From the NCBI GenBank assembly GCA_029948255.1, contig JALIZF010001585.1, positions 62,001 to 126,000 on the forward strand: 64,000 nucleotides of DNA. Reading direction: 5' to 3'. The translations under genes were made by a program, and so were the position numbers. Source of the stretch: Telmatactis stephensoni (taxonomy: Eukaryota > Cnidaria > Anthozoa > Actiniaria > Isophelliidae). This document shows, piece by piece, positions 8,075 to 33,197 of the stretch (position 1 is its first letter; every line of letters begins with the position of its first letter). The notes beneath the pieces were generated by a model, which worked only from the letters and a program-made list of their open reading frames with translations, ran no database searches and was not told the DNA's origin.

Positions 8075-8359
8075 GACCTAAGTAACTTGTTGCTTCCCTA
8101 TTCATATCATGGATTGATTTGCTTATATAGCTGTACGTAACGAATTTTACTACGTCAGAACTCTGGCATTAAAGCGCGTTCGAGAATATCGGGCATTTTC
8201 AGTGTTTTATAAACATTAACATTACTTTATAAATAAACATTGCTCTTTAATGGCTTGTCTGGTGGGCGATGAGTACTTTTACTAGCTAGGCAGACATAAA
8301 GTCACCGTTTCGTTGTCATTTGAGGTTCGTGGTTATTATTTTCAGAGTACAAGGGGTGC

Positions 8360-8720
8360 CTAAGGCCCCGTTCAAACGAGAACGCAAGTCGATGCAAGTT
8401 TAATTGCGTCCTCGTTTGAACACCTCTCAACGCAAGTCGATGGAAAATTCTCAGAAACTTTAAAGAAAAAAACAGCTAGCTGAAGGACAGCGAGAAAATC
8501 AGATTTGTTTTATTTGTAGGAGAGAAAATGTGCAGAAATTCGGACAAAAAAATAGGACAAACAACTTGTGAAGTTAAGCGTGGTGCGACTGTTCAAACGA
8601 GCCAAAACTTGCATCAACTTGCGATCAAATTTGAGTACGCTCAAACTGCTCGCAAGTCAATGAAAGTAGACGCAAGTCGATGCAAGTTGGTGCAAGTTGA
8701 TTGAGTTTCATGATGATTTA
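8360..8720. repeat. MITE-like repeat with GTTCAAACGAG termini
   Basis: GGCCCCGTTCAAACGAGAACGCAAGTCGATG is followed by inverted and direct echoes: CCTCGTTTGAAC near 8413, GTTCAAACGAG near 8591 and GACGCAAGTCGATGCAAG near 8668. The CGCAAGTCGATG core recurs at least three times. The same block occurs in copy B at 43180-43515. This is a composite of small inverted repeats with no coding potential. Confidence 0.55.
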
Positions 8721-8829
8721 TCAACATGCTAAATTGCAGCGATTTTTCATATATTTGCAGTTCCCCGCCAACGTCCTTAAAGGTATCATAACATATCAGC
8801 CTAGTATTTGAGGGCTACAGGTTTGTTAG

Positions 8830-8895
8830 TGCTATAATACGCACTATTATGTACTACCCTCTTAAAATAAAGTCTGTCTATCTATCTATCTAGCC
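8830..8895. repeat. Possible retroposon 3' tail with CTAT microsatellite
   Basis: ACCCTCTTAAAATAAAGTCTGTCTATCTATCTATC has an AATAAA-like box followed by a short tetranucleotide run, as at the 3' end of many LINE/SINE copies. The same sequence is at about 43670-43705. No coding part of a retroposon is attached. Confidence 0.4.
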
Positions 8896-9088
8896 AACAG
8901 ACAAGCTACTAATCTATTTTTGTGGCGCATATGTTTTTTGCAAATTATGACAAAAGGACAAAGTAGTAGCAAAGTCTAATAGAATGGACAATTATTACAA
9001 CGTTTCAGTGATCGCTATTGACTTACACCATTATAATATGTCATTAGACAACGCTTTATGAAATGTCATGTTGCGTACCGTTAAGTTT

Positions 9089-12000
9089 CTATAGCTTACA
9101 GTGCTTGCTTGTACTCCACTGGCTAAGTTCAGTGTGTCGTGCTAAGCAGTACACTCCTAGTAATAAGCGATTTGTACAATGATCTCTAAGATATCTCTCA
9201 ACAAAAAGACCTAAAAAGGCTGCTGCAATTCGGCCACTTGAGAATCCAATTTCAACAGCCATCATGGCTACAACTTTATTTTCTGGCTTTGTGAAAAGAG
9301 TGGCAGTACGACCAATACAATTAACACCAGTAGTACCTTGAAGTAATCCAACAAACAAAACCAGTCCAAAAACAATGTAGACGTTGGGAAGAAACCGATA
9401 CCACGATGCAAACACGAATAAGAACGTACAGCAAACATTCAAGGAAACAGGAATCCACAGTTTTCGAATTTTGAAAAATTCGACCCACTGACTGCATAAG
9501 CAGGATACGACCACAAGCTCAACACCTCCCAGTAGATACCCTAAGTCACTTAGTAATCGGTAATACTGGTAGTGATCACGAGGAGGGAATGGAGAGTTGT
9601 GGAATGTGAGAGTTGAGAGGATCGCTAACATGGAAAGCTGTAGAGAGAAGTTCCCAATGAAGACGTATATACCATAAGGTAAAACTTTGAAGACACTCAA
9701 CAATGTGACAACCGTTTGAGACTTTTCTGTTTGATCTGTTAAAGCAGTGTATTTGATACTTTGATGCAGGCAGTGAACTGGTTGACGATCTCTTAGCGGC
9801 TCTTTGTCGAGTAAAGCGTAGACAAGAAGAGGCAACAAGCAAAGCGGTATCATGATAGCCACTGTCATTCGTGGTGAAACACAAAACCATGTGGTTAACC
9901 CTGAAAGTCATTGTAAAGAGTTAAAGAATATTTGGTACTTGAGTAAATTGGCATAATAATTCCGCGCTTTGTAACAATTGAATGGCTATTTTAGTTAGAA
10001 ACTGGGAGTCTTGTAAGACACCCTCTACAATATGGTTGCATCATGGGTGCGTATGTTTTTTATTTATTTTCAATTTATTTTTGTTTTCTTTTTATTTTGT
10101 TTTTGTTTGTTTGTTTTTGCTTTGTTTTGTTTTGAAAATTTCCTATGTTTGTTTTCACTCGGGCTATCTAATTGCTAGACCACTTTAGAGAGAGAAATGC
10201 AAATCTTGCAAAAATGCAAAATGTTTTGGAATGCAAATCTGATTTTTTTTTCCAGGTACTTAATTTTAGTTTCCTCGAGCCGGTTGTACGAAGTCTGGAT
10301 ATAAATTATCCACCAGATAAGAGCTATAAATTATATCTGCTGGATAAGGATTTATCCTATGGATAGCGCTTATCAAGGCTTCCTGATGTTTAATATTAGT
10401 AATTGAGCCGAAAAACATTTATGATATATTTTGTAGATTTAGAAAAGAGTTGGTTTTGGAAGAAATTTTTAACTTTACAGTTTTCGTTTTGGCGACGCTC
10501 TGTGTACTAGAAATGAAATCTTTAAAAACGCGTTGTGCATTTAAATTGTGCAAAAATGAAAGGCGTGGGCCAGCAAGTGAAATCCAGTTTGAAAGATTAG
10601 GTTAAAGGTATTTCAAATCAGTTTGTTTGCAGTTGACCATCCGGTGGGTGCGGCCGTAAGGCCGCTCTTTTGGTATTTTGAGCAAGAAGCACAGGAAGCC
10701 CAATTCAAGCTTTTTTTGACAAAACTGCAAATTAAGTTAGTGTGCGTGTTAAAACTCAACATATGTTGATGACGTAATGACTCAACGCTCTTAATATTGG
10801 CTTCATCAAAGGGTAGTCTTGTGTCTTGAAGACATGCATGAAATCACCGCCAAACACAACCGCGTAAGCATTAACTTTTCTGTTCACAATAATATTTTTC
10901 GGTGCACACATGAATTAACTTTAGTACTTCAATGAACACATACAAGTCATCCAATTTTCAACGTGAAGCGTTGTAGAAGAGAAAATCGAAAGGAAAAGAT
11001 TTTATCTATTTTCTTCATATTTCGTTTGTGTAATATAAAACAGCTATATTTTGTAATAATGACTTTATTTAATCTACATAAAAATGGGTCAGGAACATGT
11101 CCATTTTCGCAAAAGAGAAAATCGAATTTTCTCTTTTGGCAATAAGAACGCCAATTTCCCATAAATTCGATTTCTAATTTACGAAAATACCCATATTAAA
11201 AGCGTCATATCTTTAAACCGAAAGCGTGGACGTTATTTGCCGCGATGGATTCATAAAATATAGTTGTTATACATTACACAAACGAAATGTGAAGAAAATA
11301 GATAAAGTCTTTACCTTTCCATTAAAAACAAATAAGATATTTAGCTCAGGTTGACTTACAAGCACTTTTTGAGAGATGATAATTTGTAATTTTATCGTAT
11401 GACAGTTCACGACCCCTTTACAATGAATAGCATATTTATATTAACTAATTATAACAAAACATCCTGATCAACTTGGAGAATTCGTCAGTGGAAGAAGTAC
11501 GTACTTGTCTTTTTTTCTGTGTTAGATTCAGTGTTACCCTTCAGTGCTCTCGCTAAATCTAAGCATTTGATTGGCTAACTTTTTGCCCAGCATGCTTTAC
11601 GCTCAGTGTTCAACACCACCTGGTGCTGGTCTCTATTTTGATTCTAATCCACGAGTAAGTTAGTTCTTAAACTAAAGAGTTAATGATTTGCAAAATGGTA
11701 AAATCTGTTGTAAATAAAGAATGCTGGCGATGCCATATGTCTTGTAAAAATCTTGCCAAATCCCTACTTACGTTTTGCTGAGGATAAACAAAACTGAAAA
11801 AAGCACTTACTATCAGAAACTCTGCTTGAGAGACCAGATTACATGTACTCTATTTGTTTATTTGTTCTTGTTGTTGTGCTTGTTGTTTTTTGTTTGTTTG
11901 TTTGTTTGTTTGTTTGCTTTTCTTTCTAAAGAAAACATAGCTGAGTTTTATCTGTCGGGTTGCAGAGGAAAGTTGGCGGTACAAGAGGGGGTCCTGGTAA

Positions 12001-15000
12001 CCCTGGAAGTACCTCTGTTACTCTCCTGCATATGTGGGGTACTGGTGCCAATAGTTACTTGCAATCGTTTGAAAGCCTTACTTGACAAATGATTTTTACT
12101 GGGTGTTACAAAGTCAATATAGTTGACTCTTGAAAGCAAACGCGGTTAGCTAGTAATCTCCAAGCCTTAAAGTGCTAATAAAGCCTAGCCAAATCCTTTT
12201 CAATCTAGAAATACATCATATAAATAAACGTTTGATATAAATTTTTCTGAATAAAATCAACTTCTCTGAGAATTAAGCAATTCAAATCTGAAAATGCAAA
12301 TGAAATGACGTCAAAGCAGGAATTTGCTTGATTTGGATTCTAGTTCTGAAACAGGTGTATTCAAGAGACCATAATACTAATAGAGTGAAACCAAGAGAGC
12401 ATAAATAAGAGAGGAAAACTTGTTAATTATGGGGCGCGCGTCGTGATGATTCCCATCATAATTTGACACTTCCGGACCCAGAGAACCGTTTAGTGCAGAT
12501 TTCAGTTTTCAAAAACAGCGTTAAAATCAAAGTTATCTTAAAGCTTCTGTTGTTCATATTATCTACCATCAAAAGTGTGTACTTTCTGATTACAAAGGAA
12601 CGCTTAGTTGGGGAAACAAGGTAAAAACGTTGAGAATTTTGTTGTGTTCTTGAAAGAAATTCTAGCGGAAATGCGCGCGCTACTGACGCATCACATGTCA
12701 TCGAGCTCGCGCTTAGGTTCATTCAAACATTTTCGCTCATTTAGATGAGAAAAACTCGTTTCTTTCTATAATTTTTTGATGTATGTTATTAATTGGACAT
12801 CATCAGATGGCTTTTTCGTGGAATCTAGAATAAATGTGGTATCGATTGTGTGATTTTATGAAGCTTAAATCGCGAAATTCTACTTGTTCAAATTTTCGAC
12901 GCACGGGAGTAGGGTAAGACGAAAATTAAACTGCATCCGGTTACTAAAAAAAGTGAAAATAGCACAGATGGGAATCATCACGGCGCGCGCCCCATTTACA
13001 AGTTTCCCTCTCTTATTTATGCTCTCTTGGCGAAACTCAGTACTGATGTTTTTGCAATGTTCGTGGCGGCTAAGGCTATTTTTAGTAACTTCGCGCGCGC
13101 AAGGCTCTCAAACAATAGAATTTGATTTTTGACGTGCGCGCGGACGTAACTATTTGCTTTCGGCCTTTGAATAGGCGATATGTACTAACAGGTCAGATGA
13201 CCCTATCTAAATCAAGCAACACCGTAAAAATGAACTCCAGAAAAGGAAAGAGCGTCTCAATATTAGTATAGTAGCAAAGTTTCAGCTCATAAGATGTAAT
13301 ACAGGACAAATGACAGTGAATTTAAGATTGAAGATTTTCTTAAGATTCGTTTGGAAAAACACGCTGCAGGGCAAGCTCGTGCCATCCAACGCGTTTTCGC
13401 AAAGGAATCTTAAGAAAATATCTCACCTTAAATTTGCTGTCATTTTTTCTCTCATCTTATAAACTGAAACTTTGTATTTAAACTGATATAAAGGTGCTCT
13501 TTCTATTTTTGGAGTTCATTTTGACGGTGCTGCTTGATTTAGGGGAGATAGGGTCATGTGACCTGTTAGTGCATAACGCCTATTCTCTGTTTAAGAGCCT
13601 TGCGCGCGCGATGGCGAAATTACTAAAAATAGCCTTAGCTGCAAAGAACATCGCACAGACATCAATACTGAGTTTCGCTCTCTTAGTATTATGGTCTCTT
13701 GGTGCATTTCAGGTAAGGACGGTACCCTCTATTGTCAGCGCGCACTGCGTTCTGCGCATGGCCCTTCGTAGTAAAAACATCGTAAAAACAAAGCAGTTTT
13801 GCGATATTTGGATAAATAAAAATATCACATATCATATTTAGCAATCATAGACTAGAACATCCTAAAACCAAGTAAATATTCAAAAAAAACCATTATTTTC
13901 TTTGTTTTCGCGGGTTTATGGTATTGCCCTACCAGAGAATTATGCTTAGAGTGTTTTAGAGAAAAAAACGTTTGAAACTTATTGGAAGTATAGAGGATTT
14001 TTAATTTGTTTTCTTTGGGTCGTCAAAAATGCATTTTCCGCAACATTTGATGACGTATAACTCATTAAAATGCGTGGTGACCCCCAATTTTTTTCTTGGA
14101 TTCTAACAGCCTACAATGGGTTCTTTCACACCCATATAGATTTTAGAGAAAATAATTACTTTCACATTAGAGGGCTCCGTCCTTAAGTACCAAAAATACT
14201 TACCATACCTTGTACTTTAGCAATGAGATTGTTTCGCAAATAGGAAAATAGTATTAAATTCGTATATAGTTAATTTGTATATTTAATAATTCCTGCTTTG
14301 ACGTCATCTAATTTGCATTTTCAGATTTGAATTGCTTAATTCTCAGAGAGAACAGCAAGTGAGAACATGACGCTCATAGTTACTTCACTTATGGTACTTG
14401 AAAACTCCTGAGATTTTCTAATATATTCTCACGTATTTCCATAGACTCCCAGGAGTCTATAGGAGTACAAGGGAGTCTATGGGAGTAAGTGAGAATATCT
14501 CAGAAAATCTCAGGAGTTTTCAAGTACCATAAGTGAAGTAACTACCGACGAATATGCGCGAACCGCTGGACAGAAGTGCCTCAATTACGGTTTTAACCTG
14601 GCGGCTACCTCTCTCATAAAGAGAGTCGTATATAGTCTCCCCAAAATTTTTTGGAGCATTAGATTCGAGTGCAGAAGTACGAACAGCTAGAAATCATCCT
14701 TTCAAAATTATCCATTAGTCCAAGACAATAGAAGTTGGAGACATGCGCAGATGTTATCACTTGCTGCTCTTAGAGAGGAGTTAATTCTATTCAGAAATAT
14801 TTATATAAAACGTTTATTGATCTGATGATTTATTTCTAGATTCAAAAGGATTTGGCTAGGCTTTATTGGCACTTTAATCAGTGTGTTATTTTACGTTTAC
14901 CTGTATAAGCAAGTGAGGAGAAAAAAGCAGACATGTTTATACCGAGCTTATAAGCACTGGCGATGTCGTCAGACGTTTGGTAGTAAGCAAGCATCACATA

Positions 15001-15342
15001 ACATGTTACCAAACCAAAACCGCGACCAACGCCAAGGAAAGCTACTCCGATGACTCGAACTGTCACATCGTTGAAAAGCACGATGACAAGTAAAGAGCCA
15101 GCCACCAGCAAGGTCTGCGCAACCATTGCACACAAAAACGGTAGTCTTCTGACGATAAAGGGACATATGAATTTACTGGTGATCTCTGGGATGGAGAAAG
15201 CAACGAATACGATTGCAGTAGACCATGTAGTGCCAGCAAGGATGTCCTCAGTAGCAATCCATGAAACAGTAAATGACAAAAGGGAGATGCAGAAACCAAA
15301 GGAAAAGAAACAAAGTTTCGTCAGACGATCTTTCTGTTCCAT
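9089..15342 (-). CDS. CLN3-like (battenin-like) multi-pass membrane protein, copy A, two exons
   Basis: Exon 1 is 15342-14901 and exon 2 is 9900-9089. The intron is about 5 kb, with donor CAG|GTAAAC and acceptor TTTCAG|GG. The joined frame is 417 residues plus stop, against 438 in human CLN3. Exon 1 encodes four hydrophobic segments and the LAYTG that aligns with the LSYLG block of CLN3. Exon 2 opens with LTTWFCVSPRMTVAIMIPL, matching the LTQAGLSPQQTLLSMLGIP region, and continues with WYRFLPNVYIVFGLVL, like WFGFLPSIYLVFLIIL. In the family, CLN3 is a lysosomal/endosomal membrane protein linked to glycerophosphodiester clearance. The part equivalent to ASRSS of vertebrate CLN3 is not conserved and the C-terminus lacks a CaaX box, so a divergent paralogue is more likely than a strict orthologue. 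The start is the first ATG before the first hydrophobic segment; an upstream exon cannot be excluded. Confidence 0.78.
12362..13701. repeat. Nested inverted-repeat complex of about 1.34 kb inside the intron
   Basis: The outer ends CAAGAGACCATAATACTAA (12362) and TTAGTATTATGGTCTCTTG (to 13701) are inverted. Inside, 12391-13030 is a TIR element with arms of about 65 bp: CCAAGAGAGCATAAATAAGA against its inverse TCTTATTTATGCTCTCTTGG. A second foldback at about 13019-13690 has arms of about 300 bp centred near 13370. CG-rich blocks such as GCGCGCGC sit in the arms. The whole complex is repeated in copy B at 47241-48583. Confidence 0.8.
13717..14182. mobile_element. TTAA element, GGACGG family, internally deleted copy
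   Basis: Left end GGACGGTACCCTCTATTG and right end (reversed) GGACGGAGCCCTCTAATG. The right flank is TTAA (14183-14186) and the left flank is a mutated GTAA. Compared with the full 798-bp copy at 48598-49395, about 330 bp are missing between two ATAAAA tracts, consistent with a microhomology-mediated deletion. No transposase is encoded. PiggyBac-type mobilisation is inferred from the TTAA. Confidence 0.8.
14378..14543. repeat. 166-bp hairpin MITE (also at 49591-49756)
   Basis: Arms of about 55 bp start AGTTACTTCACTTATGGTAC and end with GTACCATAAGTGAAGTAACT. The loop holds a smaller palindrome of CCATAGACTCCC and GGGAGTCTATGG. A related uninterrupted sequence at 38150-38185 reads CATGACGAGTATGCGCGAAC and shows what the locus looks like without it. 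Confidence 0.8.
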
Positions 15343-15546
15343 AGTACTTCCCTCTGAGTCACTGCAAATAAAACAGCGAGATTTTGTTGGCTATATTATT
15401 CAAAACCTGTTTAGTTTTGTGAGATTCCTAATGTATACAATTCTCTTAATTGGTAAACATGTTTCTTTGTTTAAAATCCTTGGATAAGGAACTGACACAA
15501 ATATTCACCTCGAACTGAAAGAAGCCTATTCCCAAAGAGGATTTAA
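15343..15546. promoter_or_regulatory. Probable 5' flank of CLN3-like copy A
   Basis: The 200 bp directly upstream of the ATG on the minus strand, before a TTAA MITE begins. No TATA box or clear initiator could be fixed. The matching flank of copy B (50556-50759) is almost identical, so proximal sequence is preserved. Beyond 15546 the two copies differ by the large retrotransposon inserted in A. Confidence 0.35.
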
Positions 15547-16160
15547 GGGTGTACTGACATATATCGTTGCTGTGCAACAGTTGCTATGCAAAATAGGGTC
15601 TTATTTTGGCCGGCAAAATTGAATAGACGCACGCGCGCGCGTTTTTGGCGAGAATCATTTAACTTCCGGTAGAGCGACGCACACCTGACAAAAAGGACTC
15701 ATTTTCGTTCTTATTGCGCATGCGCGGGACACTTTACTTCCGGTTTCTTTAAAAAGCTATAATCTTTGGCGAATTTCATCAGAACGAAGTGTTTTTCAAT
15801 ATTTATATTCTTTTCAGCCTCTTCTTCAAAGCCGAGCATGGGATTTGCGAAAAATTGAGAAATACGAAAGTTATTGGCATAAGTCGAGTCATTTTTGACT
15901 TTCAAAAAATCCTAAAAGGCTTAATTGGAAACCATTCTTAAAACCCATGCTCGATTCTATGCACCTTGGTCTCAAGATTAAAATAATGCATTTTAAATTC
16001 TCAAATATACAGTGCTGAAAAAAATTATAGCTTTTTGCTGTATCTATGACGTCACATGATGACGTCATGCAATGGCGTCATAAAATGCGAAAGTTCCCTC
16101 AGGGAAGACAAACTACAAAATATAAAAGCGATATGACAATTTGGTGGCATTTTATAGAAT

Positions 16161-16316
16161 ATGTATTTTGCTTCGGTATGAAGAGTTAGATAAGCATTCT
16201 TTACCGCGGCACGTGCGCTATTCCCTGGGGTCCTCGTTCATTACTTAAGCGAAAATTCGCAATTACGCCTCACTCATGCTTGTGGACCAGCATCCTAATA
16301 ACTCTAGAGGTTTACT
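16161..16316 (+). repeat. Split direct repeat A1, left terminus
   Basis: 156 bp starting ATGTATTTTGCTTCGGTATG and ending GAGGTTTACT. Repeated at 17146-17301 with a single noticed change (CATGCTTGTG against CACGCTTGTG). The Gag start codon follows after 9 bp. Confidence 0.9.
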
Positions 16317-16325
16317 ACTATCAAG

Positions 16326-17644
16326 ATGGCTGAAGAAGAACAAGACCTCGAGAGACAACCCCAGATTTCCACTAAGAGATCCAGAAGGTCCTCGGCCCGC
16401 ACATCTAAGACCAAGACAAGTTCCCCAGAAGAAGTCCTATCATTGCTAAAGTCTTATTTGGAAGATAAATTGGAAGACAAAGATAAAAGATACCGAGAGA
16501 AGGCCAAAGTCGACAAACAGGCATCTAAACTGAAGAGTAAAGGAAACCAAAAGCAGTTCGAATTCAACGCGGAGTTAGAAGATTTATTCTGCAGAATCTT
16601 CGAATCAGACGATAAGGATAACATAGAGTCCTTTGCTAAAGAAGGCATCGACAAGATCAAGAGAAGGCAGAAACTTATCAAGATAGCGGATAAGGAACCG
16701 AGAGATGGATGGAAGGTAGTTGATGAATATTTGTCAGATGAGCTGGCATCGGATTCTGAAGACGACAAGAAGTTAAAGAAGGCTAGGAAGGCCGTCGCCG
16801 AGAAAAGAAAGAAGGATGAACATTCTAAGAGCTCTAGGCTGGCTAAGCGACCACGATACACTGGTGAATCGGAAAAGCGGCTTTTTCGAGGTAAGAAAAG
16901 TTTGTTCTCAATACTTAAGAGATTTTAGTACGGATTATAAACAATTACTTAGAAGACGATTGCTCACGATCTGGTACTTAAAATGTATTCTAACTCAGAA
17001 CCTGACTACTTTGTGAATTCTCAGAGTAATGGTCCGCAAGCGAACCTACCATATACAACTACGTCTGTTGTTATTACTTTAATATCTTCGAAATATAGAA
17101 GATAAATATTTTACGTTCGTTTGAACGAAGTGAATTAGAACGTAAATGTATTTTGCTTCGGTATGAAGAGTTAGATAAGCATTCTTTACCGCGGCACGTG
17201 CGCTATTCCCTGGGGTCCTCGTTCATTACTTAAGCGAAAATTCGCAATTACGCCTCACTCACGCTTGTGGACCAGCATCCTAATAACTCTAGAGGTTTAC
17301 TTTCCCACCCGACGGCAGCGGCTTTGACTATAGGGTACTAGATAGGATTAGACAAGATTAACAACCCATAAAGAGCCCATTAAAATATGACCGGATTGAA
17401 TAATAATAATAATAATAATAAATAAATAAATTAAAAAAATAATAAATTCCTAGATACTGCTCTCATTATCTCTTTTTTAGGCTATAAAGAAGACAGGATG
17501 GACGCCGCAAGATGTTACAGATGCATGAGTATCGGCCACTGGGCAAAAGACTGCTGGAAAGTCAACAGATATCCAACAAAGCCAACCTATGGCAACTATA
17601 CCTACAAGACCTCCACCTACGCACACCCCGGATCAAGCAAATAA
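16326..17644 (+). CDS. Gag-like protein of the PAT-like element, predicted two exons
   Basis: Exon 1 is 16326-16890: a highly charged Lys/Glu/Asp/Ser-rich segment of about 188 residues, starting at the ATG 9 bp after repeat A1. Unspliced, the frame would run 200 residues to a stop at 16928. A strong donor (CGAG|GTAAGA at 16891) and an acceptor after a pyrimidine tract (CTCTTTTTTAG ending at 17480) bound a 590-nt intron. Joining these keeps frame and adds a CCHC zinc knuckle, CYRCMSIGHWAKDC (CX2CX4HX4C), near 17512-17553, with a stop at 17644. Such knuckles bind nucleic acid in Gag proteins. The intron contains the whole internal B1-A2 repeat. The splicing is predicted from signals and frame agreement, not observed. 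The pol frame overlaps the 3' end. Confidence 0.7.
17027..17301 (+). repeat. Internal B1-A2 junction of the split direct repeats
   Basis: B1 (17027-17145) ends GAACGTAA and is joined directly to A2 (17146-17301), which starts ATGTATTTTG. B contains the near-palindrome ACGTTCGTTTGAACGAA. The junction equals the sequence expected where the two element ends meet in a circle, so it is the likely template for restoring termini. It lies wholly in the predicted gag intron. Confidence 0.85.
17396..17450. repeat. AAT/AAAT microsatellite
   Basis: (AAT)n followed by AAATAAATAAATTAAAAAAA, inside the predicted gag intron and 30 bp before the acceptor. Confidence 0.8.
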
Positions 17645-18980
17645 GGATTTGATAGACCGCGATTTATTATCACAGGTACATTTATTAGAGGATTCATTTG
17701 AATACGAATGTAATGGACACAATATTGCCCAAGTCAAAGGGAATCTTAAAAATAACTTAGAGTTTTGGAAAACCATAGGGGCTTCAAGATACATTTTAGA
17801 CGTTGTAGAACATGGATACAGATTGCCTTTCACACACTTGCCCCCTGAACCTATCCAGCTTAAAAACAACAATTCCGCACTCGTCCATCATAAATTTGTT
17901 CACGAAGCGATAGAAGAACTGTTCCAATCTGACCGCGTCATCGAAGTACGGGAACCTCCACTGGTAATCAATCCCCTCTCAGTTTCAGTGCAATGAAACG
18001 GGAAGAAAAGGCTCATTTTAGACTTAAGGCACGTTAACAAAACACTCCAAAAACTACGTATAAAATATGACGATTAGAAAGTGGCAATGAGCTATTTTGC
18101 TAAAGATTCGTACATGCTCTCATTTGATTTAAAAAGTGGGTATCACCACATTGAAATTGCAGCAAATGACCAAACATACCTAGGCTTCGCATGGCAATCC
18201 GAAAATCAGGAAACTAAGTTCTATGTATTTACAGTTCTTCCATTTGGCCTATCTACAGCTCCCCACATATTCACGAAATCATTAAAACCACTTGTAAAAC
18301 ACTGGCGACACCAAGGGATTTGTATTGCGCTTTTCCTGGACGACGGTTGGCTCACAGAGAACTCTTACGAATCAGCATGTAATTTGGCCGTAAAAATCAA
18401 AAACGATTTGAACGCCGCGGGTTTTATAACAAATGACGAAAAATCCAGCTGGGACCCTACTCAGAGATTAACATGGCTGGGCTTAGTTTGGGACTCAGCC
18501 CAGGGTACATTGGAAATCACTAGCTCGAGAATCAACAAAATTCTCGCAACAATAGATAACATGACCAAACACGACTCGACGCTCACTGCTAGACGCTTGG
18601 CCGCATTCACAGGACAGATTATCTCTATAGGTCCAGTAGCAGGAAACGTTACACGTATAATGACTAGACACTGTTGCCTCACGATAGCTTGCGCAGAACA
18701 TTGGGATTTAGCCCTAGAATTAGACACTTATTGTTTAGACGAAATCTCGTTCTGGAAAAGCCACCTAAACTCACTAAAGGCAAGAGATTGGTTTTTAGTC
18801 AAAAAACCCCACTGTTTCGTTTACTCCGACGCAAGTTCCACAGGCTGTGGGGCCAAGCTTACTCTAGATAAGACACATATTAGCCACGAATCATGGAAAG
18901 AAGAAGATAGAGAAAAAAGCTCCACGTGGAGAGAATTATCGGCTATAAGTTTTTCACTGGAGGCATTTAGTAAGCTATGA
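17589..18980 (+). pseudogene. RT and partial RNase H of the PAT-like element, with premature stops
   Basis: One frame from about 17589 to 18980, broken by TGA at 17994-17996 and TAG at about 18075. After the second stop: SFDLKSGYHHIEI (first RT aspartate, residue 16 from the ATG at 18081), TVLPFGLSTAPHIF, and the catalytic LFLDDGW (LDD, residues 86-88). The start of RNase H follows: YSDASSTGCGAKL (D250) and WRELSA (E285). The remaining RNase H aspartates are missing because the sequence jumps to the recombinase. In the family the protein copies element RNA into DNA before recombinase-mediated insertion. Stops in the fingers region and loss of half of RNase H mean this copy cannot make an active polyprotein. 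Confidence 0.85.
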
Positions 18981-18983
18981 GCT

Positions 18984-19562
18984 ATGATTAAACAGATGAT
19001 AGACAGATACGCAGAGGACAAGTGCACTTTGAAAGATGTGCGGACAGCAGCAATGTGCGCAATTGGTTTTGCGGGATTCGTACGCTACAGCGAGCTGTCG
19101 AACATAAAACCGAGGCATATTTCATTTTGTAAAGACTGTATAGTAATTTTCATTGCTAATAGTAAAACTGATGTTTATCGCGAAGGAAACAAAGTTTCTA
19201 TTGCAAAAACTCGGACAAAATACTGCCCCGTAGCATTACTAGAAAAGTATGTAGATATGGCAAATATTACCAGAAAGAGTGAAGTATACTTGTTCAGAAG
19301 ATTAACAAAAACTAAGTCAGGATATGTTCTAAGAAAGGAAAGATTGTCCTCCACAAGATGTGGAGAAATGTTCCTAGAGTGTTTAGTTGCACTAGGTTTT
19401 GATGCCAAAGATTACGGCGTCCACAGCTTAAGATCAGGGGGTATGACCACTACAATTCATCCCGACAGTTGGATTTCAGAGAGACTCTTAAAACTTGACG
19501 GGCGGTGGAAAACGGACACAGCAAAGACATATATGTCGTTGAATGTAAGCAGAATCGAGTAA
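18984..19562 (+). pseudogene. Tyrosine recombinase domain of the PAT-like element, N-terminally truncated
   Basis: 192 residues in the same frame as the upstream RT, separated by one TGA. Catalytic motifs are present: first Arg in FAGFVRYSELSNI (R34), HSLR (H147, R150), GRW (W175) and the nucleophile in AKTYMSL (Y183). The N-terminal core-binding part normally present (about 100 residues) is missing, together with the end of RNase H. The join reads AAGCTATGAGCTATG, with a repeated AGCTATG that may mark the deletion point. Family members cut and rejoin DNA through a 3'-phosphotyrosine, which fits the absence of a target duplication at this insertion. Confidence 0.85.
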
Positions 19563-19845
19563 GAATAACTAAAAGCCTAGGATTCTGATTTAATGATGAC
19601 AAATGTATTTGTTCACTATCGAATCAATGAAGGATATCTAAATGCGAGTCATTTGGTATTTTTGTACAAATATTACAATATATAATATATATAGTATAAC
19701 TTAAGAGTTTGACCGTATCTGTAAGTGACCTACGCATATATATATATTTCCAATTTATTAAGTATCATTTACTATTACATATATCAAATCAAGCACTTTA
19801 CCTTAACTATGATTTATGTACGAGTTAATTATTATCACCAATAAA
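19563..19845. other. 3' noncoding part of the PAT-like element
   Basis: About 280 bp of AT-rich sequence with TATATATATA runs between the recombinase stop and repeat B2. No further frame is present. Confidence 0.6.
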
Positions 19846-19964
19846 TAATGGTCCGCAAGCGAACCTACCATATACAACTACGTCTGTTGTTATTACTTTA
19901 ATATCTTCGAAATATAGAAGATAAATATTTTACGTTCGTTTGAACGAAGTGAATTAGAACGTAA
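19846..19964 (+). repeat. Split direct repeat B2, right terminus
   Basis: 119 bp starting TAATGGTCCGCAAGCGAACC and ending GAATTAGAACGTAA; matches B1 at 17027-17145 by eye. The flank TTTCAAATTT starts directly afterwards. Confidence 0.9.
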
Positions 19965-20416
19965 TTTCAAATTTCCCTAGCAACGGGCCATTTTTATATG
20001 TCAGTACACCCTTAATGGAAAAACATCGAGGAAAGCGAAATAAGGCCCATCTGGAGGACATTTTCGTGGACTATCCAATTTCTCAGTAATTGGATAGTTT
20101 TGTCTCAGCCAATGAAATTCAAGAAAACAAAAAGAAATATATTTCAATGCAACCAATCAGCGTGCAGCATTTTATCAGAACAACTGCATGAGAAACAAAC
20201 CAAATCTTGAGAGAAAAATGGCGGATTGTTTTGGACTGTTGTAAACTTGTTTTTCTCAGGTACTTCTTTACATTTCCCTGACTTTCAGTGTTAGTAATTG
20301 AGTAGAGAAAAATATTTATGATAAACTTTAGCAGTTTTTTCTGAGAACAGTTGATTTTACGGGATTTTTTCAACCTTGAAGTTTTGGCTTTTGCGAGTGT
20401 TGGTAACGCTCTTTAA

Positions 20417-20742
20417 GGTGATTCCTCTGTTTTGCATCACGCACGTCTACCGCCCATGGTTCAGAAAGCATAGTATTACGACTGTCAGCATTTTCATTCA
20501 AATTATGACTAAAAAAGGTTAAAACACAATTTGAAACAATTGTGCAAGTTTTGGTGAGACAAATAGTGAGTTTTGTAAAACTCGCCCCAGTACTTTCTCG
20601 GAAAAGTGCCGATTTTAACACAAATTTGATGGTAATTTTGAAAATAACTCTCTAATGAGCACGGTGACCCCCATTTTCTATTTCAAATTTTGCTTTCTTG
20701 TTATGATTTACAAAACATATTTGAAAATTAAGAAAAGTTATA
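20417..20742. mobile_element. Left part of a TTAA element (GGTGATTC family), cut by the next transposon
   Basis: Begins GGTGATTCCTCTG after TTAA (20413-20416). The full copy is 51825-52558 in duplication B and ends with the inverted AATCACCT before TTAA. Here it stops at the TA flanking the DM-domain transposon, and its right half is absent on the other side. It contains AATGAGCACGGTGACCCCCA, a motif shared with the GGACGG family. Confidence 0.65.
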
Positions 20743-20769
20743 GAGTGCACGCACTTAATCCGTGAAACA
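20743..20769. repeat. Left terminal inverted repeat of the DM-domain transposon
   Basis: 27 bp starting GAGTGCACGCAC, adjacent to TA. Pairs with 23857-23883 with one mismatch (G against A at the fifth base). Confidence 0.9.
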
Positions 20770-21199
20770 TAATTATTAATATTTATTACTAAGTGTGAAC
20801 ATACTAATTAGACAATATAAGGAATTAGTGATGCGTAAAAACTGTAACAACACTTTATTCATGTATGATATGAAGAAATGAAGAGATTTCTTTTCAAAAC
20901 AAAAACACAACACATTTTTATTAATGATAATCAACGACTAAAATAACGTTTGAACTTTGTAGATTCAGTTTAATGGTCGAAATACGTTAAGACCATATAT
21001 GGTTGTCTATGAAAATACGTAATTTTTATTTAACGCTACACTGAATGTTTATGTACATCATTTTTTTCCTTCAAGCTATCACTCTATCCCGGCCTGCCTA
21101 CAAGATATGATTGTATTACAGTCTCATACAACTGGAACAAAATTATTTTAACAATCGCTATGCTACGAAATAAGGCCAAATCTATGAACCTATCAAATG
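20770..21199. other. Noncoding left arm of the DM-domain transposon
   Basis: About 430 bp of AT-rich sequence between the left TIR and the stop codon of the DM-domain gene; presumably its 3' untranslated region. No additional frame seen. Confidence 0.6.
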
Positions 21200-22301
21200 T
21201 TATAATCGACGGTAGTTCTTCTTAACAAGAGCTCCACAGTATGGACAAAAATTAAAATCGTCGCTCGGGATATGCTTAGTACAGGAAGAACATAACGGCA
21301 TTACGCCCTTCGGCATGCAGTCTTTCTTCTTTTCACCAAGAAATGCGGGTACGGTATTCTTTTCCGGCCGATGGAAGGATAGTATTTTACCTGGCACGGA
21401 TGGTTGGACAAGCCGTTCATTTTCCTGCACGCCAGCGAGGATTTTCTTTAAAGACGTGGACGAAAGTGTCGTCTTCGCTGCGATGGTTTTAGCCATGTCC
21501 ACGTCGGCTGTGGCAGCTTGACAAGCCTCACCGACTGTCATATAGTCATCACACTCGTCATGAGCTTCAATTTCTTGTTGACTCAGCACGTGGTTGACTA
21601 CAGCATTAATATCGCCTTTCATTTGTGTTAGCATGGCAGCAAGGTATGGTCTTGCCACATCTGGTAAGACATTGCCGAGGTGCTCTAGCTGGGCGCCAAA
21701 TTCAACTATACTAGTGCCATGACCAGATGCTGGAGGTTGGCTGGGCATAACGCACACACGTTCTTTGGACTGTGCAGCGTTTACAGGCTTTAACTGATGT
21801 AGCTGTATAGCTGTTTTCATGACTTGAAGGGGTGAAAGATCAGGCGCAGCACTGACAATGTCTCTTGAATAGTCGTTGATCTTGTTGTAGAGCTCCCGGT
21901 GCTTTTGTAACTGCTTCTTCTTTTGTTCTGTGGTTAAACAATTAAAACTTTTCAAAAAAAAAAACAATTATGTTGGAGCCATTATATTGAGCGTAAATTA
22001 TATTATCAAGCTTACCAACTCTTTTCTCTTCGACAGTGAGACCTTTTAAAGTCTTTAGGCCTGCTTGTTCGTAGTTTGCAATAGCAAGAACCTCATCAGT
22101 GTTAACCGTAGGTTTTGCACACGCCGGGAAGGATTGTGGAGTTAAATCGATATTATTTTGACACTGACGAGCTTTAGTGTGACTTGCACACTTGTCGCAA
22201 GAGCATTCCTTGTAAGGACAAACCTTTTTATGGCCACGTAAAGGAGCAATTTTGCCATGTAAACGGCACTTTGCACACGTACGACCTATTATCCGCTCCA
22301 T
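21200..22301 (-). CDS. DM-domain (DMRT-like) protein with C-terminal zinc ribbon, encoded in a transposon
   Basis: Exon 1 is 22301-22016 and exon 2 is 21927-21200. The 88-nt intron has donor G|GTAAGC and acceptor CCACAG|AA; the joined frame gives 337 residues. Residues about 8-35 carry all eight ligands of the intertwined DM zinc module: CAKCRLHG, GHKKVC and ECSCDKC, matching DMRT proteins position for position (CARCRNHG, GHKRFC, DCQCKKC). DM domains bind the DNA minor groove in animal sex-determination factors. The middle has a charged helical stretch (EEKRV, then EQKKKQLQKHREL) and an acidic region. The C-terminus has CSSCTKHIPSDDFNFCPYCG, a CxxC-x12-CxxC zinc ribbon. It lies inside the TIRs, divergent from the transposase with about 340 bp between starts. 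Possible roles are binding transposon ends or regulating its expression (inference). An ancient host exon captured by the element is an alternative origin. Confidence 0.85.
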
Positions 22302-22638
22302 ACTTCATATGCATGTGAATGAATGTTTGCACTCTTGAATCAAACAACACGCGAGTAGTCAGCCTTCTCGCCTTCTGATTGGCTGACCGTTCAGGGGGCG
22401 GCAATTTAAATTAGACACATTCCGTAACGCACGCCATATCCTAATTTAGACAAGTGCATTCAGCTTTCTGATTGGTTGGTCTTTTAGTGGGCGGCACATT
22501 TAAATTACGCTCGTGTCTAATAAATCAATCTTGTGAATAAAAAAAAATTATGCTTTTACTCTCGCGCTTTCCGTTTGGTGAAGAGAAGTGTTTTGTTTTT
22601 CTGTTGTTCCAAAGATATTTAAAGTTTACGTAAACGTG
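22302..22638. promoter_or_regulatory. Probable bidirectional promoter between DM-domain gene and transposase
   Basis: Two similar direct blocks: CTTCTGATTGGCTGACC with GGGGGCGGCAATTTAAATTA (near 22371-22412) and TTTCTGATTGGTTGGTC with GTGGGCGGCACATTTAAATT (near 22463-22506). Each combines an inverted CCAAT box (ATTGG), a GC box-like GGGCGG and an AT-rich TTTAAAT. Such paired boxes between divergent starts fit a shared promoter. Not tested. Confidence 0.55.
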
Positions 22639-23622
22639 ATGTCGTGGAGAGTGAACCGTCAGGGGGGACATTATTCCTATGGAACTGCATATCCACTGCA
22701 AAAGAGAATTGAAATCATTGTCACCTATATAAATTCTGGGTCGTATTACGCCACATCTTACATCTGTAAAGTAAGCTACAATAGTGTTAGAAAGCTCGTG
22801 GAAGTATTTCGGCAAAAGGCCACAATGCTGCCTCAGTTCCATGCGAATTCCCGACCAAATGAAATACCTTGTTGGTTGGAAACATATGTAGAGGCTATTC
22901 TGGTGCTCTATCCGACACTGTACATAAAAGAAGTACAACAGCTTGTAGTGGACGACTTTGGTCTGACACCACAAGAAACACCGTCATGTTCGTGGATACG
23001 AAAACTACTGAGGAAGTCACATATCACGAGGAAGAAGTGCACTGTTGTAGCAATAGAAAGGTTTACACCGTATATTCAACTACAACGACAGAACTTTTTC
23101 CAATGGCGACAAGCTATTGATCCAAGGCTAGTTTATTTCTTCGATGAAAGCTCTTTTTCGTCAGAAACCGATCAGCGCAAATATGGATACAACGAGTGTG
23201 GTTTTGCTTTGCCAGCATACCGGAATAAGAGACAAACATCAAGTAGTTCAGTTTTAAGTGCTATAGGTTATCGAGAGGGAGTTCTCATGGCCATACCCGT
23301 TCAGGGTAGTTTCAATATTGAGCTCGTAAACGACGTCATTGAGTATCAAATTTTGCCTCTACTTCCTAACAATTGCTACCTGGTAGCGGATAATGCAAGT
23401 GTGCATAATGAGGCGAGTTTAGCAGCAATTCTTTACCCCAAGAACATAACACTGGTGATGTTGCCCGCCTATAGCTATGACCTCAATCCAATAGAGATGG
23501 TGTTTGGTTTGGCCAAGGCACTAGCCCAGAAGACACCAGGAGCAATACAAGAAAATATGCTGCTAGCTGTGGTAAACGCGTTCGTCCAAATGCCCGTCTT
23601 AAGTGTTGTTTTTAAAATATAA
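22639..23622 (+). CDS. Tc1/mariner-like (IS630-type, DD34E) transposase
   Basis: About 327 residues from the ATG at 22639 (MSWRVNRQGG). An earlier in-frame ATG at 22588 adds 17 residues that look untranslated. The N-terminal half has helix-turn-helix-like sequence (RIEIIVTYINSGSYYATSYI through NSVRKLVEVF). The DDE catalytic core has VYFFDESSF (D186 counted from 22588), YLVADNASVHN (D268) and LPAYSYDLNPIE (E303), giving 34 residues between the second D and E. The PxYSxxLNPIE box is typical of this superfamily. The enzyme would excise and insert the element at TA. The frame is open and all three acidic residues are present. The C-terminus after the E is short and may be completed by splicing. 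Confidence 0.88.
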   Translation: MSWRVNRQGGHYSYGTAYPLQKRIEIIVTYINSGSYYATSYICKVSYNSVRKLVEVFRQKATMLPQFHANSRPNEIPCWLETYVEAILVLYPTLYIKEVQQLVVDDFGLTPQETPSCSWIRKLLRKSHITRKKCTVVAIERFTPYIQLQRQNFFQWRQAIDPRLVYFFDESSFSSETDQRKYGYNECGFALPAYRNKRQTSSSSVLSAIGYREGVLMAIPVQGSFNIELVNDVIEYQILPLLPNNCYLVADNASVHNEASLAAILYPKNITLVMLPAYSYDLNPIEMVFGLAKALAQKTPGAIQENMLLAVVNAFVQMPVLSVVFKI

Positions 23623-23856
23623 TTGTGCTTTATTTAGTATATTTGAAATAAAGAAAATAACTTCGGATTGCTCATGAGTGATTATATATGGTGTGCACAG
23701 TGTATTTATTGAGTCTGATTTCAATATTTTGTGTTATACGTGGTGGGAAACTTTAATAAAACGTTTTGCATCTTTACATGTTGTCTCTTTCATTCATAAA
23801 ATAGTAAATCTCTAATTAGATCTACTATTTAGTAATTAGTAGTAATTAGTACTATT
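23623..23856. other. Noncoding right arm of the DM-domain transposon
   Basis: AT-rich sequence with two AATAAA-like signals (TTGAAATAAAGAAAATAA near 23643 and TTTAATAAAACG near 23752), likely polyadenylation sites for the transposase. Short subterminal repeats of TAATTAGTAGTAATTAG lie near 23832. Confidence 0.55.
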
Positions 23857-23883
23857 TGTTTCACGGATTAAGTGCGTGTACTC
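23857..23883. repeat. Right terminal inverted repeat of the DM-domain transposon
   Basis: TGTTTCACGGATTAAGTGCG through GTACTC, followed by TA. Inverse of 20743-20769 with one mismatch. Confidence 0.9.
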
Positions 23884-23885
23884 TA

Positions 23886-28866: not shown

Positions 28867-29007
28867 TGTAACGGCGGGTTCCCTGTGCACCAGGGGCCGC
28901 AAGGCATTACTGGGGCGAAGTTGTTGTTTGTAAAACACTGTTGTTAGTCGCTCCGAAATAAAGACATTTTAACAAGTAATATGCAAGCGTAGTCTTTGAG
29001 TTCTACA
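28867..29007 (+). repeat. Left LTR of the gypsy element
   Basis: 141 bp, TG...CA termini, with an AATAAA polyadenylation signal near 28957. Unusually short for a gypsy LTR. The primer-binding site starts 1 bp after its end. Confidence 0.95.
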
Positions 29008-29130
29008 TTGGTGACCCCGACGAAAGAACGAACAACATCGCAGCACAGTAAACTGGCTACACAACGCCTGCAAAACTGATTATTTTCACACCGATTCTTC
29101 GTTGTCTTCGTTACTCGTCAATCCTGCAAA

Positions 29131-29904
29131 ATGCCTGATCCAGAGGAAAACAAAACCGACGCTATCTGCAATACCGTGGCTTTAAAGCTACCTCAATTCT
29201 GGCCTGCCGATCCACAAATATGGTTCGCTCAAGTGGAGGCACAGTTCGCTACCCGAAAGATTACAAATCAAGACACAAAATTTTATTATGTTGTAGCATC
29301 CCTTTCACCCGAAGTCGCCGCAGATATTCGTGATCTGCTCATCCAAAAGCCGGCAGAAAACGCATATGATGAGTTAAAAAAGAAACTTCTAGAGAGAACA
29401 ACGACAACCAAGGCTCAGAAGCTGCAGCAGTTATTGGCAACAGAAGAATTAGGCGACCGTAAACCTTCCCAGCTCCTTAGGCGATTCCAACAGCTATTAG
29501 ATGATAGTCCCGCTGACCATCCATTAGTTCGTGAGTTATTTTTACAACGGTTACCTCAGCATGTACGTCAATTATTGGCTGTAACAACCAAGTCTACAAC
29601 ACCGCTAGAGGAGTTGGCAAAGCTCGCCGACAAAGCTATGGAAGTGCAAACTTTCAATGTGAACTCTGTTCAACGTCCGCCCGAGTCAACCGCTTTCAAC
29701 AACCTACAAGCTCAATTGAATGAGATAAACAAGACTTTGGCCACATTGTCTAAAAAGCAGGAAAAACCAGCCAACCAACCCAATGCAGCCTCATCAATTG
29801 GTAAACAGCCTCTGTGTTTTTACCACCAGCGATTTGGAAACAAGGCTCGTAAGTGTCAACAACCCTGTAGCCACTCCCAGGAAAACGACAGAGTCAGCAC
29901 GTGA
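29131..29904 (+). CDS. Gag protein of the gypsy element
   Basis: 257 residues. The N-terminal [20 protein letters not shown] block is typical of Gag in invertebrate Ty3/gypsy elements. A helical capsid-like region follows ([36 protein letters not shown]). The C-terminus has a CHCC zinc motif, [18 protein letters not shown] (CX2HX9CX3C), in place of the usual CCHC knuckle; this unusual motif was described for CsRn1-type Gag. The stop at 29902-29904 overlaps the start of the pol frame, which is -1 relative to gag. The start is the first ATG after the primer-binding site and is followed by MPDPEENK. Gag would package element RNA into virus-like particles. Confidence 0.9.
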
Positions 29905-32900
29905 ATGCGGCCGACCTGCTGACTGAAACAAAGAGCCGTTTATTTTTCGTTAAAGACAGGAATTCAGACAAACAGTTTTTAGTTGACACTGGAGCAGAAG
30001 TCAGCGTTTTACCGTTCAATAAACAGGGACCACCCCTGCCACCAAGTTCATTTTCTCTAGAAGCTGCCAATCATAGCAGAATTAAAACTTTTGGAACTCG
30101 TTCACTTAAGTTAGACTTCGGGCTACACCGAAAGTTTAATTGGAAGTTTATTGTAGCAGATGTTAAATTTCCTATACTTGGAACTGATTTCTTACGTCAC
30201 TATGGTTTACTTGTTGATGTTTCTAAATGCAGACTACTTGATGCTACAACCTACTTAAGCGCTCAAGGCTTAACAGCTCAGGTACCTTCAATCAGCCCAA
30301 TAACTATGGGATCACAATCCAAGTATCATAAAATTCTTAACGACTTCCCATCACTTACCAGGGTTACCCAGGACATGAACGTTAAACACAAGGTAACCCA
30401 TCACATTGTCACGAAAGGTCAACCTGTGCATGCAAGACCCAGGCGTTTAGCCCCAGAGAAGATGAAAATAGCACGTACTGAATTTAACAATCTATTGGAC
30501 CTTGGTATCATTCAACCCTCAAAAAGCAACTGGTTGTCACCCTTACACATGGTACCAAAGAAAAATCCAGGAGAATGGAGACCATGTGGGGATTACAGAG
30601 CACTTAATGATATAACCGTACCAGACAGGTACCCAATCCCACATATTCAAGATTTTACATCAAGCCTCCATGGTACCACTGTCTATTCCAAGGTTGATTT
30701 AGTTCGAGCTTATCATCAGATTCCGGTAGAACCCGACGATGCGCACAAAACAGCTCTGACTACACCTTTTGGACTGTTCGAGTTCACCAGAATGCCCTTT
30801 GGTTTACGCAACGCCGCTCAAACATTTCAAAGGTTCATTGATCAGGTCATTCAAGGACTGGACTTTTGTTATGGATATATTGATGATATTCTTATAGCAA
30901 GTGCAACACCACAAGAGCATGAAGAACACCTGAGATTGTTATTTCGTAGGTTGGATCAGTATGGACTCATTATCAACCCGGATAAATGCGAGTTTGGAAA
31001 GACCGAGTTAACCTTCTTGGGACATCATATCAGCAAGGACGGCATACGACCATTGCAAGAGAAAGTTCACGCAGTTCTAGATTTTCCCCTACCAGAATCT
31101 ACCAAGAAGCTTAGAGAATTCCTTGGTTTGATAAACTTTTATCATAGATTCATACCTGAGTGTGCTACCTTACAGACCCCTCTCCTTGGTTGTCTAACGG
31201 AAGCAGATCGACGCAGAGGATCGTTACATTGGACTGATCAACTCATCAAGCATTTCAATGATCTCAAAAGAGCTTTAGCAGCAGCAGCACACCTCTCGCA
31301 CTGGCACCCAACAGCAGAAACCTGTCTTATTGTAGATGCTTCAGATATTGCGGTCGGAGCAGTAATTCAACAGAAAGTCAATGGTGATTGGCAACCACAT
31401 GGATTCTTTTCTAAGAAGCTTAAACCAGCTGAAACTCGCTACAGTACTTTTGGAAGAGAACTGCTGGGGATTTACCTGGCAATCAAGCACTTTCGACACC
31501 TTTTAGAAGGCAGAAACTTTTATGTTCATACCGATCATAAACCGTTAACCTACATCTTCAGAAGTAATTCAGATAAGTACTCACCACGAGAAGTCCGGCA
31601 AATGGCCTACATTTCAGAATTCACCACAGATGTCCGTCATGTGAAGGGTAGCTCAAATGCAGCAGCTGATGCACTCTCACGGTTAGATATCAACTCCTTA
31701 GAGGAAAACCCAAGTTTAGACTATGATCTACTTGCCGAAGCTCAAGCTGAAGATCCTGAAATACAACGTATGAAACACAGCAACAACACGATACAGTTCC
31801 AAGAAGTGCATTTTACTGGTACTACAAAACCAGTTTTGTGTGACATCTCTACTGGTACTCCAAGACCGTTTTTACCAAAGGAGTATAGAAGGCCAATGTT
31901 TAATTTGCTGCATGGACTGTCACACCCAGGAATACGTGCTTCACAGAAGCTGATCACATCTCGTTTTATTTGGCCAAGAATGAATACTGACGTACGGAAA
32001 TGGTCTAAAGAATGTGTGGCATGCCAGCGATCGAAAGTTTATCGGCACACAGTTACGCCACTTGGAACATTTGACCTCCCAAAGCGTAGATTTGACAACG
32101 TTCATATTGATCTGGTTGGTCCTTTGCCGTCAGCAGAAGGATATACCTACGTACTTACATGTATCGATCGCTACACACGTTGGCCAGAAGCTATACCTAT
32201 AACTGGTATTACAGCAGAAGCTGTCGCTAAAGCCTTTGTCTCAGGATGGATATCACGATTTGGCGTCCCTTCAACAGTAACTACAGACAGAGGAAGGCAG
32301 TTTGAGTCACATCTGTGGAAGGAACTTAGCAAACTTCTGGGAACCAAGCAAGTTCGTACAACTGCGTACCATCCAATTGCAAATGGAATCATTGAACGGT
32401 TTCATCGACAACTCAAAGCCTCCCTCAAGGCTAAAACTGGAAGCACCTGGTTGGATGCACTACCCTTAATCCTCCTAGGAGTGAGAAGTGCGTTCAAGGA
32501 AGAACTGCAAGCTTGCACTGCTGAGCTTGTTTATGGAACTGTTTTGACTTTACCAGGACAATTGCTTAACTATGAGTCGCAAGACTCAGCTGTTTCAACT
32601 TCAGAATTTGTTAACAAGTTGAAGGCTTGCATGCAGTCACTTAAAGCTAAACCTACGAAACATCGTACACGTCCTGTCTACATCCACAAGGCATTGGACA
32701 CGTGCACACATGTTTTTGTCAGGCAAGATCACTTAACAAAGCCACTGGAGCCACCTTACAGGGGACCGTACCGTATATTACAGCGATACCCAAAGTGTTT
32801 CAAGCTTGATCTTGATGGGCGTCAAGATACAGTATCGCTGGATCGACTCAAACCCGCATTTATAGAGTCACCCCAGGACAGTGAGTTGGAATGCAACAAA

Positions 32901-33041
32901 GACCTTAAAAGGCAGCACAGCCAGCAACAAGAAGTACACCTACCTACGCCGCAAGCAGCAAAGGATATGGAACGTTTCCCTGCGTCTCGTAAAACACGCA
33001 GTGGAAGACTTGTCAAAACACCGCAACGTTACATGTTGTAA
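29901..33041 (+). CDS. Pol polyprotein of the gypsy element (PR-RT-RH-IN)
   Basis: Up to 1046 residues, open throughout. Domains in order: aspartic protease ([13 protein letters not shown], residues 27-38; ILGTDF, 92-97); reverse transcriptase ([12 protein letters not shown], first D at 266; YIDD 326-329); RNase H (VDAS, D479; E520; TDHKPL, D545; [10 protein letters not shown]590); integrase HHCC zinc finger (H671, H675, C705, C708); integrase core with D737, D796 and E832, 35 residues between the last two; a GPY/F-type module ([10 protein letters not shown]) near residue 955. All catalytic residues are present. The frame is -1 to gag with an overlap of about 36 nt and no obvious canonical slippery heptamer. 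The real first residue is uncertain because this frame opens with GTG and probably depends on frameshifting. Confidence 0.95.
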
Positions 33042-33056
33042 CTAGAGGGGGGGTAC

Positions 33057-33197
33057 TGTAACGGCGGGTTCCCTGTGCACCAGGGGCCGCAAGGCATTAC
33101 TGGGGCGAAGTTGTTGTTTGTAAAACACTGTTGTTAGTCGCTCCGAAATAAAGACATTTTAACAAGTAATATGCAAGCGTAGTCTTTGAGTTCTACA
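33057..33197 (+). repeat. Right LTR of the gypsy element
   Basis: 141 bp, identical by eye to the left LTR, followed by the CATT duplication at 33198-33201. Confidence 0.95.

Follow-up and report, generated by a model that had tools for sequence, protein, structure and literature searches.

A stretch of 64,000 bp from the genome of the sea anemone Telmatactis stephensoni (contig C371, positions 62001–126000; hereafter the window) contains a transposon that carries a DM-domain gene beside its transposase, and the same pair of genes occurs in related elements throughout the host assembly (483.5 Mb, 1782 contigs). The terminal inverted repeats (TIRs) of these elements follow the form TA-GAGT...TGAAA; between them lie, usually head-to-head, the gene for a DD34E transposase and one whose product combines DM, CUE-like and zinc-ribbon parts. 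Tc1/mariner elements are textbook single-gene transposons, which normally encode a transposase only. We interpret the anemone elements as a long-lived, diversified two-gene lineage of the IS630-Tc1-mariner (ITm) group that took up a DMRT (doublesex/mab-3 related) gene once, and whose DM protein may serve as an element-encoded second DNA-binding partner, as the Myb-like protein does in PIF/Harbinger elements. We give this interpretation an even chance of being correct.

The element in the window is a DNA element of the Tc1/mariner type that spans 3141 bp (positions 20743–23883; Table 1). A preliminary description of the window had claimed 27-bp TIRs with TA flanks that enclose two divergent genes, and this was borne out: the two repeats agree at 26 of 27 positions, shuffled controls gave 0 matches in 100, TA stands beside both ends, and the enclosed genes encode a transposase of the DD34E type and a DM protein, the latter from two exons. 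The catalytic residues of the transposase are D169, D251 and E286, with 34 residues separating the last two, and the protein matched Pfam DDE_3 (E 2e-19), which agrees with its earlier assignment as a DD34E enzyme. DDE_3 was found in all 27 aligned transposases, and the best fold matches included Mos1 and the Sleeping Beauty catalytic domain. The DM gene, on the minus strand, has a predicted product of 337 aa. Its N-terminal DM domain (Pfam DM, E 1.3e-11) has all eight zinc ligands that had been reported for it; the C-terminal zinc ribbon also described at that stage was seen, but its Pfam match was weak and under the cut-off (E 4.5e-4).

Copies outside the window indicated that the arrangement is a recurrent one. 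Forty stretches were built from 60 loci with DM and transposase matches (L009–L068), with further pieces added later, and 18 copies could be read from TIR to TIR, one or both ends being unseen in the other stretches. These 18 copies belong to five TIR families: the window family (C371, C351, C119 and C336), a nine-copy family of 3.86–3.92 kb, C240, C59 with C269, and C470 with C140. The preliminary description had proposed counting loci with both genes inside the same TIRs; in the host assembly, sequence of both genes lay inside 17 of the 18 copies, in several TIR families, in some of them disrupted, and C140 retains DM exon 1 only. The one-off capture it had considered can thus be set aside, as other copies and other families with this TIR type carry the DM gene. 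The genes are head-to-head in most pairs and tail-to-tail in C470 and C140.

TA was present at both ends of all 18 TIR-to-TIR copies, a result that is partly built in since the TIR search required TA. Among 43 pairs of elements aligning over more than 1 kb, the flanks did not match except for 60 bp at 73% identity in one pair. Empty-site counterparts, in which the two flanks are joined with one TA, were identified for C336 (four places, 97–99% identity), C59 (three places, 93–97%) and C470 (one place, 85%). Together, the status of the element as a transposon and the observation of its two genes were confirmed. Copies with a transposase only (C3:556866, C322:304289 and C900) or a DM gene only (C743 and C1063) were 96–99% identical to parts of C67, a copy that holds a DM gene and broken transposase pieces, and these single-gene copies look like derivatives of two-gene copies.

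Pairing of the two genes was also apparent in genome-wide searches. The tblastn analyses gave at least 132 matches for the DM protein and at least 123 for the transposase, which clustered into 82 DM loci (at least two of them host-like) and 106 transposase loci. A transposase lay within 6 kb of 52 of the 82 DM loci, 49 of them divergent and three convergent, compared to approximately 0.2 pairings expected under an even spread. Viewed from the transposase, a DM neighbour within 6 kb was present at 53 of the 82 loci with at least 35% identity and at none of the 21 loci with 32% identity or less (three further loci fall between these classes). A Pfam scan of the assembly identified 87 DM-domain stretches, 13 of which scored above 59 bits and were host-DMRT-like by score; none of these 13 had a transposase match within 25 kb. 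The other 74 comprised 52 within 6 kb of a transposase, seven more within 25 kb and 15 near none.

A second, more distant transposase group (seven loci, 38–41% transposase identity) was found tail-to-tail with DM sequence, with 2.7–18.9 kb between the genes; in L069 and L085, the two stretches of this group that were read, no element ends were found. In one of these, L085 (C571:245900–251200), the tail-to-tail DM exon is 2.7 kb off and a repeat-like frame lies upstream of the transposase.

The TIRs themselves were far more numerous than the genes. The exact 27-mer of the window element occurs 270 times in the assembly (0 for the reversed control), and the TIR form TAGAGTGN{13,15}CGTGAAA at 6570 places (5 in the control). 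When eight of the 270 exact places were inspected, the element body was found in none and six were 121–141-bp elements between both TIRs, which indicated that short non-autonomous elements are common. The 6570 places represent a large set of mostly short elements using such ends.

The DM proteins of the different families are built alike: the DM domain is accompanied by a basic helical stretch with an LKTAIQLHQ-like end, a CUE-like domain, a motif resembling SFHRP and, at the C-terminus, a CxxC-CxxC ribbon. All eight DM zinc ligands were retained in 21 of 23 element-type rows, which had been collected with a pattern that allows few changes. Pfam CUE matched 10 of 14 exon-2 rows (E up to 1, best 4.2e-7), and in a Foldseek search with the exon-2 model CUE and UBA domains ranked first, with the doublesex chain 2jz0 at rank 21. 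The DMA domain (PF03474) was absent from the best 25 of the 48 families listed for the DM proteins, and no Myb or MADF match was listed in their Pfam results. The pattern [VIL][VIL]DLT was found in 11 of 18 DM models, with that of C470 sitting within the zinc ribbon; among these models it was not found in the window family, C180, C59 or C269. In some families it reads VIDLTD, which we take to be a SUMO-interaction-like motif. DM genes were modelled in 22 copies. The intron is in phase 1 in 19 of these and joins at the corresponding place in 18, an agreement that is not independent as splice sites were picked partly by similarity; the exceptions were C222, which is aberrant, and C667, C93 and C650 in phase 0. 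Outside support came from Exaiptasia and Actinostola proteins, which span the junction matching the intron.

Comparisons between families indicated a long common history. Identity between families was 27–49% for the DM proteins and 46–74% for the transposases, and the two distance matrices were correlated (Mantel r 0.82, exact P 0.0007, eight families), in a test that left out C336 and C515 as near-copies and kept the partial transposases C528 (151 residues) and C180 (276 residues) and the poor DM model C667. Both protein trees were compatible with the groups C371+C470, C171+C240+C528 and C180+C667+C59. These comparisons showed that the transposase and the DM gene diverged together. Synonymous divergence (dS) was saturated between families, with nonsynonymous divergence (dN) of 0.31 and 0.37 for the transposase (two pairs) and 0.55–0.60 for the DM gene (three pairs). 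The retention of the gene pair across related families suggests that the DM protein serves some function for the element.

To consider the origin of the DM gene, a tree of DM domains was examined that comprised 23 element-type rows (13 from the main group, one from the second group and nine database proteins, the last not shown to lie in transposons) and 11 DMRT rows. The tree collapses identical rows and omits the gene models C93, C222 and C650 and the host domain C110, which did not fit the pattern. In this tree, a branch set 22 of the 23 element-type rows apart from the DMRT rows; its support of 93/99 is under the strong-branch mark of the tool, which for these 57 columns also warned of few columns and long branches. 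The row from the second group was unplaced and on the DMRT side of that branch, and all 23 rows stood together in 31% of bootstrap trees. The nesting of the DM protein within a host DMRT orthologue, raised in the preliminary description, therefore found no support, given the separation of 22 rows in this weak tree and the lack of a nearby transposase at all 13 host-like domains. Most likely, as we infer from these data, the lineage acquired its DM gene from a host gene of the DMRT type in one ancient event, before the families split. We see very little probability in the opposite direction of transfer, by which the DM-CUE module of DMRTs and the paired domain of PAX would have been domesticated from early-animal Tc1/mariner-type elements, leaving the living DM-carrying elements and the zinc-ribbon anemone "Dmrt" genes as remnants.

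Relatives of the DM protein were detected in other animals. A profile search, scored among the 8000 best candidates, identified 19 proteins that included sea anemone ones. Actinostola QZH41_018329 is 46% identical to the C59 protein over 256 aligned columns, and Exaiptasia diaphana protein P0039, annotated as DMRT A1, is 87% identical over 163 aa to the C240-family protein, a likeness compatible with either horizontal transfer or strong constraint. Scans of viral contigs gave no relative in one case and four loci with distant matches in another, and no relatives of the DM protein were found in phage records.

The N-terminal part of the transposase is paired-like, with Pfam PAX matching it in 17 of 27 proteins (E up to 1, best 6.1e-10). 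In the part of the PAX6 source available (PMC7046147), the PAI site is TTCACGC, which the inner TIR motif resembles. The paired-like domain and the inner motif TTTCACGG/C would fit recognition of the TIR by the transposase. We considered whether PAX is linked to the DM elements in particular and rejected the idea: the DM-carrying transposases C470 (E 2.3e-6) and C171 (3.8e-6) are matched less well than L095 (1e-20) and L096 (7.4e-17), which have no DM neighbour, as is also the case for L098 (2.1e-4). By this control, the paired-like domain is found more widely and is no hallmark of DM elements. L095 and L096 are distant Tc1/mariner-type transposases of the same genome, and judged by their PAX paired-domain matches, the source of PAX genes may have close surviving kin in the elements to which they belong.

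In the mechanism we propose, the transposase would recognise the TIR through its paired-like domain and then cut and join the DNA, and the DM domain would contact DNA of the element itself, at AT-rich subterminal stretches or in the promoter region. Through its CUE-like part the DM protein might dimerise or have its stability governed by ubiquitin, as has been described for DMRT proteins, and the same kind of ends may mobilise the many short non-autonomous relatives. Several observations weigh against this reading. At 29 of the 82 transposase loci with at least 35% identity there was no DM match within 6 kb. The window transposase is without the conserved C-terminal end seen in the C119 and C336 copies, the two protein trees conflict on the order within C171, C240 and C528, and changes within families were few and near neutral (pN/pS, the ratio of nonsynonymous to synonymous differences, 0.74 and 0.63 for the two genes). 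Shared subterminal motifs were rejected as DM binding sites, as the three 8-mers common to at least four of five families in subterminal DNA were within the shuffled range (mean 0.7, maximum 5). The CUE assignment was weak for the window DM protein (E 0.094), as was the fold support (best Foldseek E 0.28, with a mean predicted local distance difference test score, pLDDT, of 67 for the exon-2 model).

A somewhat unlikely alternative is that the DM protein has no part in cutting and is instead a transcription factor on the element's promoter, which would tie transposase expression to a germline or sexual state as with gonadal host DMRTs. The DM domain itself is in keeping with such a role, as are the divergent orientation of the genes, the 41-nt direct repeat in the gap that separates them and the resemblance of DM+CUE to the DM+DMA of host DMRTs, whose CUE-like DMA domain governs stability and binds ubiquitin (PMC7538159, in part). 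The repeat (22370–22410 and 22463–22503, with ATTGG and GGGCGG in both copies) was, however, not found in the three other copies examined, which showed no direct repeat of any kind between their genes, the convergent families have no shared upstream region, and beyond the zinc module the sequence departs from that of host DMRTs. Use of the CUE-like domain, and in some families of the SUMO-interaction-like VIDLTD, to help the element evade host silencing or degradation appears improbable. The CUE matches and the [VIL][VIL]DLT pattern in 11 of 18 DM models are in its favor, but the pattern was missing from the window family and from C180, C59 and C269.

It also seems quite improbable that the DM gene is a passenger, captured once from the host and carried without function for the element. 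The near-identical transposase-only and DM-only copies could be read in this way, as could a TIR form that is far commoner than either gene. Against this, the open frames, zinc ligands and C-terminal ribbon outlast divergence to 27–49% identity, the gene pair persists through a change of gene order, and dN is low relative to saturated dS between families. Finally, a transposon inserted by chance beside a host DMRT gene, or an error in joining the assembly, has a negligible probability as an explanation. The window copy does offer a reason for caution: it is 100% identical to the C351 copy across all 3141 bp, and its flanks appear swapped with those of that copy, as at C400:288411–288630 the right flank of the window element comes after the left flank of C351. 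The left and right flanks of the window element were thus probably not neighbours originally, which implies either that copies exchanged sequence or that the assembly is wrong within the element. However, both forms of this explanation are refuted by the 18 TIR-bounded copies, the three elements with empty sites and the absence of a transposase near any of the 13 host-like DM domains, and chance insertion was likewise rejected by the pairing counts.

Table 1. Features of the two-gene element in the window (window positions; a dot marks features without strand)
Feature	Position	Strand	Details
TA target dinucleotide, left	20741..20742	.	Read directly
Left 27-bp TIR	20743..20769	+	Inner part is TTTCACGG on the other strand
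DM gene, exon 2, stop included	21200..21927	-	QKKKQL..LSPLQVMKTAIQLHQ stretch, CUE-like domain, SFHRPE motif, C-terminal zinc ribbon, NYRRL end
Intron, 88 nt, GT-AG, phase 1	21928..22015	-	Predicted; matching junction of a related family spanned by an anemone protein
DM gene, exon 1, DM domain with all eight zinc ligands	22016..22301	-	Gene model, Pfam
Gap between start codons, 337 bp	22302..22638	.	Holds the 41-nt direct repeat
Transposase, DD34E, paired-like N-terminal part and DDE_3	22639..23622	+	Pfam, fold match; C-terminus altered relative to C119 and C336
Right 27-bp TIR	23857..23883	-	Inverted-repeat match
TA target dinucleotide, right	23884..23885	.	Read directly

The window copy is missing approximately 70 bp relative to the C119 and C336 copies. 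To its left, positions 7722–20743 form a segmental duplication with 42535–52153, mostly 97–99% identical, and the match of this duplicate of the left side (approximately 42.5–52.2 kb) ends at the left TA. We take the frames of the duplication to be MFS (major facilitator superfamily)-transporter-like. The left duplicate has an extra stretch at 16161–19964, presumably a tyrosine-recombinase retroelement. A presumed Ty3/gypsy-like retroelement at 28867–33197 carries a pair of 141-bp direct repeats at 100% identity to each other, which suggests recent insertion. A second retroelement on the minus strand (56288–59682), which we regard as DIRS-like, has reverse-transcriptase-like and recombinase-like frames.

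The persistence of the DM gene through a long diversification suggests that elements of the Tc1/mariner type can come to rely on, or benefit from, a DNA-binding module of animal development, and the lineage provides a direct system for testing the role of a second protein in Tc1/mariner transposition. In addition, sex-determination studies may have counted transposon genes among cnidarian "Dmrt" genes, as only 13 of the 87 DM stretches in this assembly were host-like.

Full-text searches of open-licence literature gave no transposon with a DM gene among the papers listed, and the novelty of the element is stated relative to that literature, subscription papers and Repbase being outside it. Coral CMITE elements were considered as relatives and rejected, as they are of the unrelated piggyBac type (PMC2872659, in part). 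The anemone elements resemble IS630-Tc1-mariner DD34E elements such as Sleeping Beauty and Mos1 in their TA target, TIRs, DDE_3 domain with 34-residue spacing and paired-like N-terminus, and differ from them in that the lineage keeps a second, intron-bearing DM gene across families. An extra protein gene in a mariner-type element has precedents: some Mariner elements, four related single-copy elements among them, bear Fanzor1, endonuclease or methyltransferase genes, although no DM protein is described for them in the available portion of the source (PMC3627910).

The element protein and animal DMRTs have identical DM ligand spacing and a CUE-like domain further along, but the element protein is transposon-encoded, has an extra C-terminal zinc ribbon and has other residues after the zinc module. 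Nematostella NvDmrt F, described with DMA and zf-ribbon-3 domains in the part of PMC4433094 available, would by that description share a zinc ribbon with the element protein. NvDmrt F and the Exaiptasia "DMRT A1" differ from it in being published or annotated as host Dmrt genes.

The comparison that bears most directly on our interpretation is with PIF/Harbinger, in which transposition of the rice and zebrafish elements requires a Myb-like protein as well as the transposase, with a subterminal motif as the binding site of the Myb-like protein (PMC9710019, in part). As in PIF/Harbinger, the anemone elements have two genes, one catalytic and the other DNA-binding, the latter being a prediction for the DM protein. 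Unlike PIF/Harbinger, their transposase belongs to the DDE_3/ITm superfamily, and a DM-CUE-zinc-ribbon protein replaces the Myb/MADF protein.

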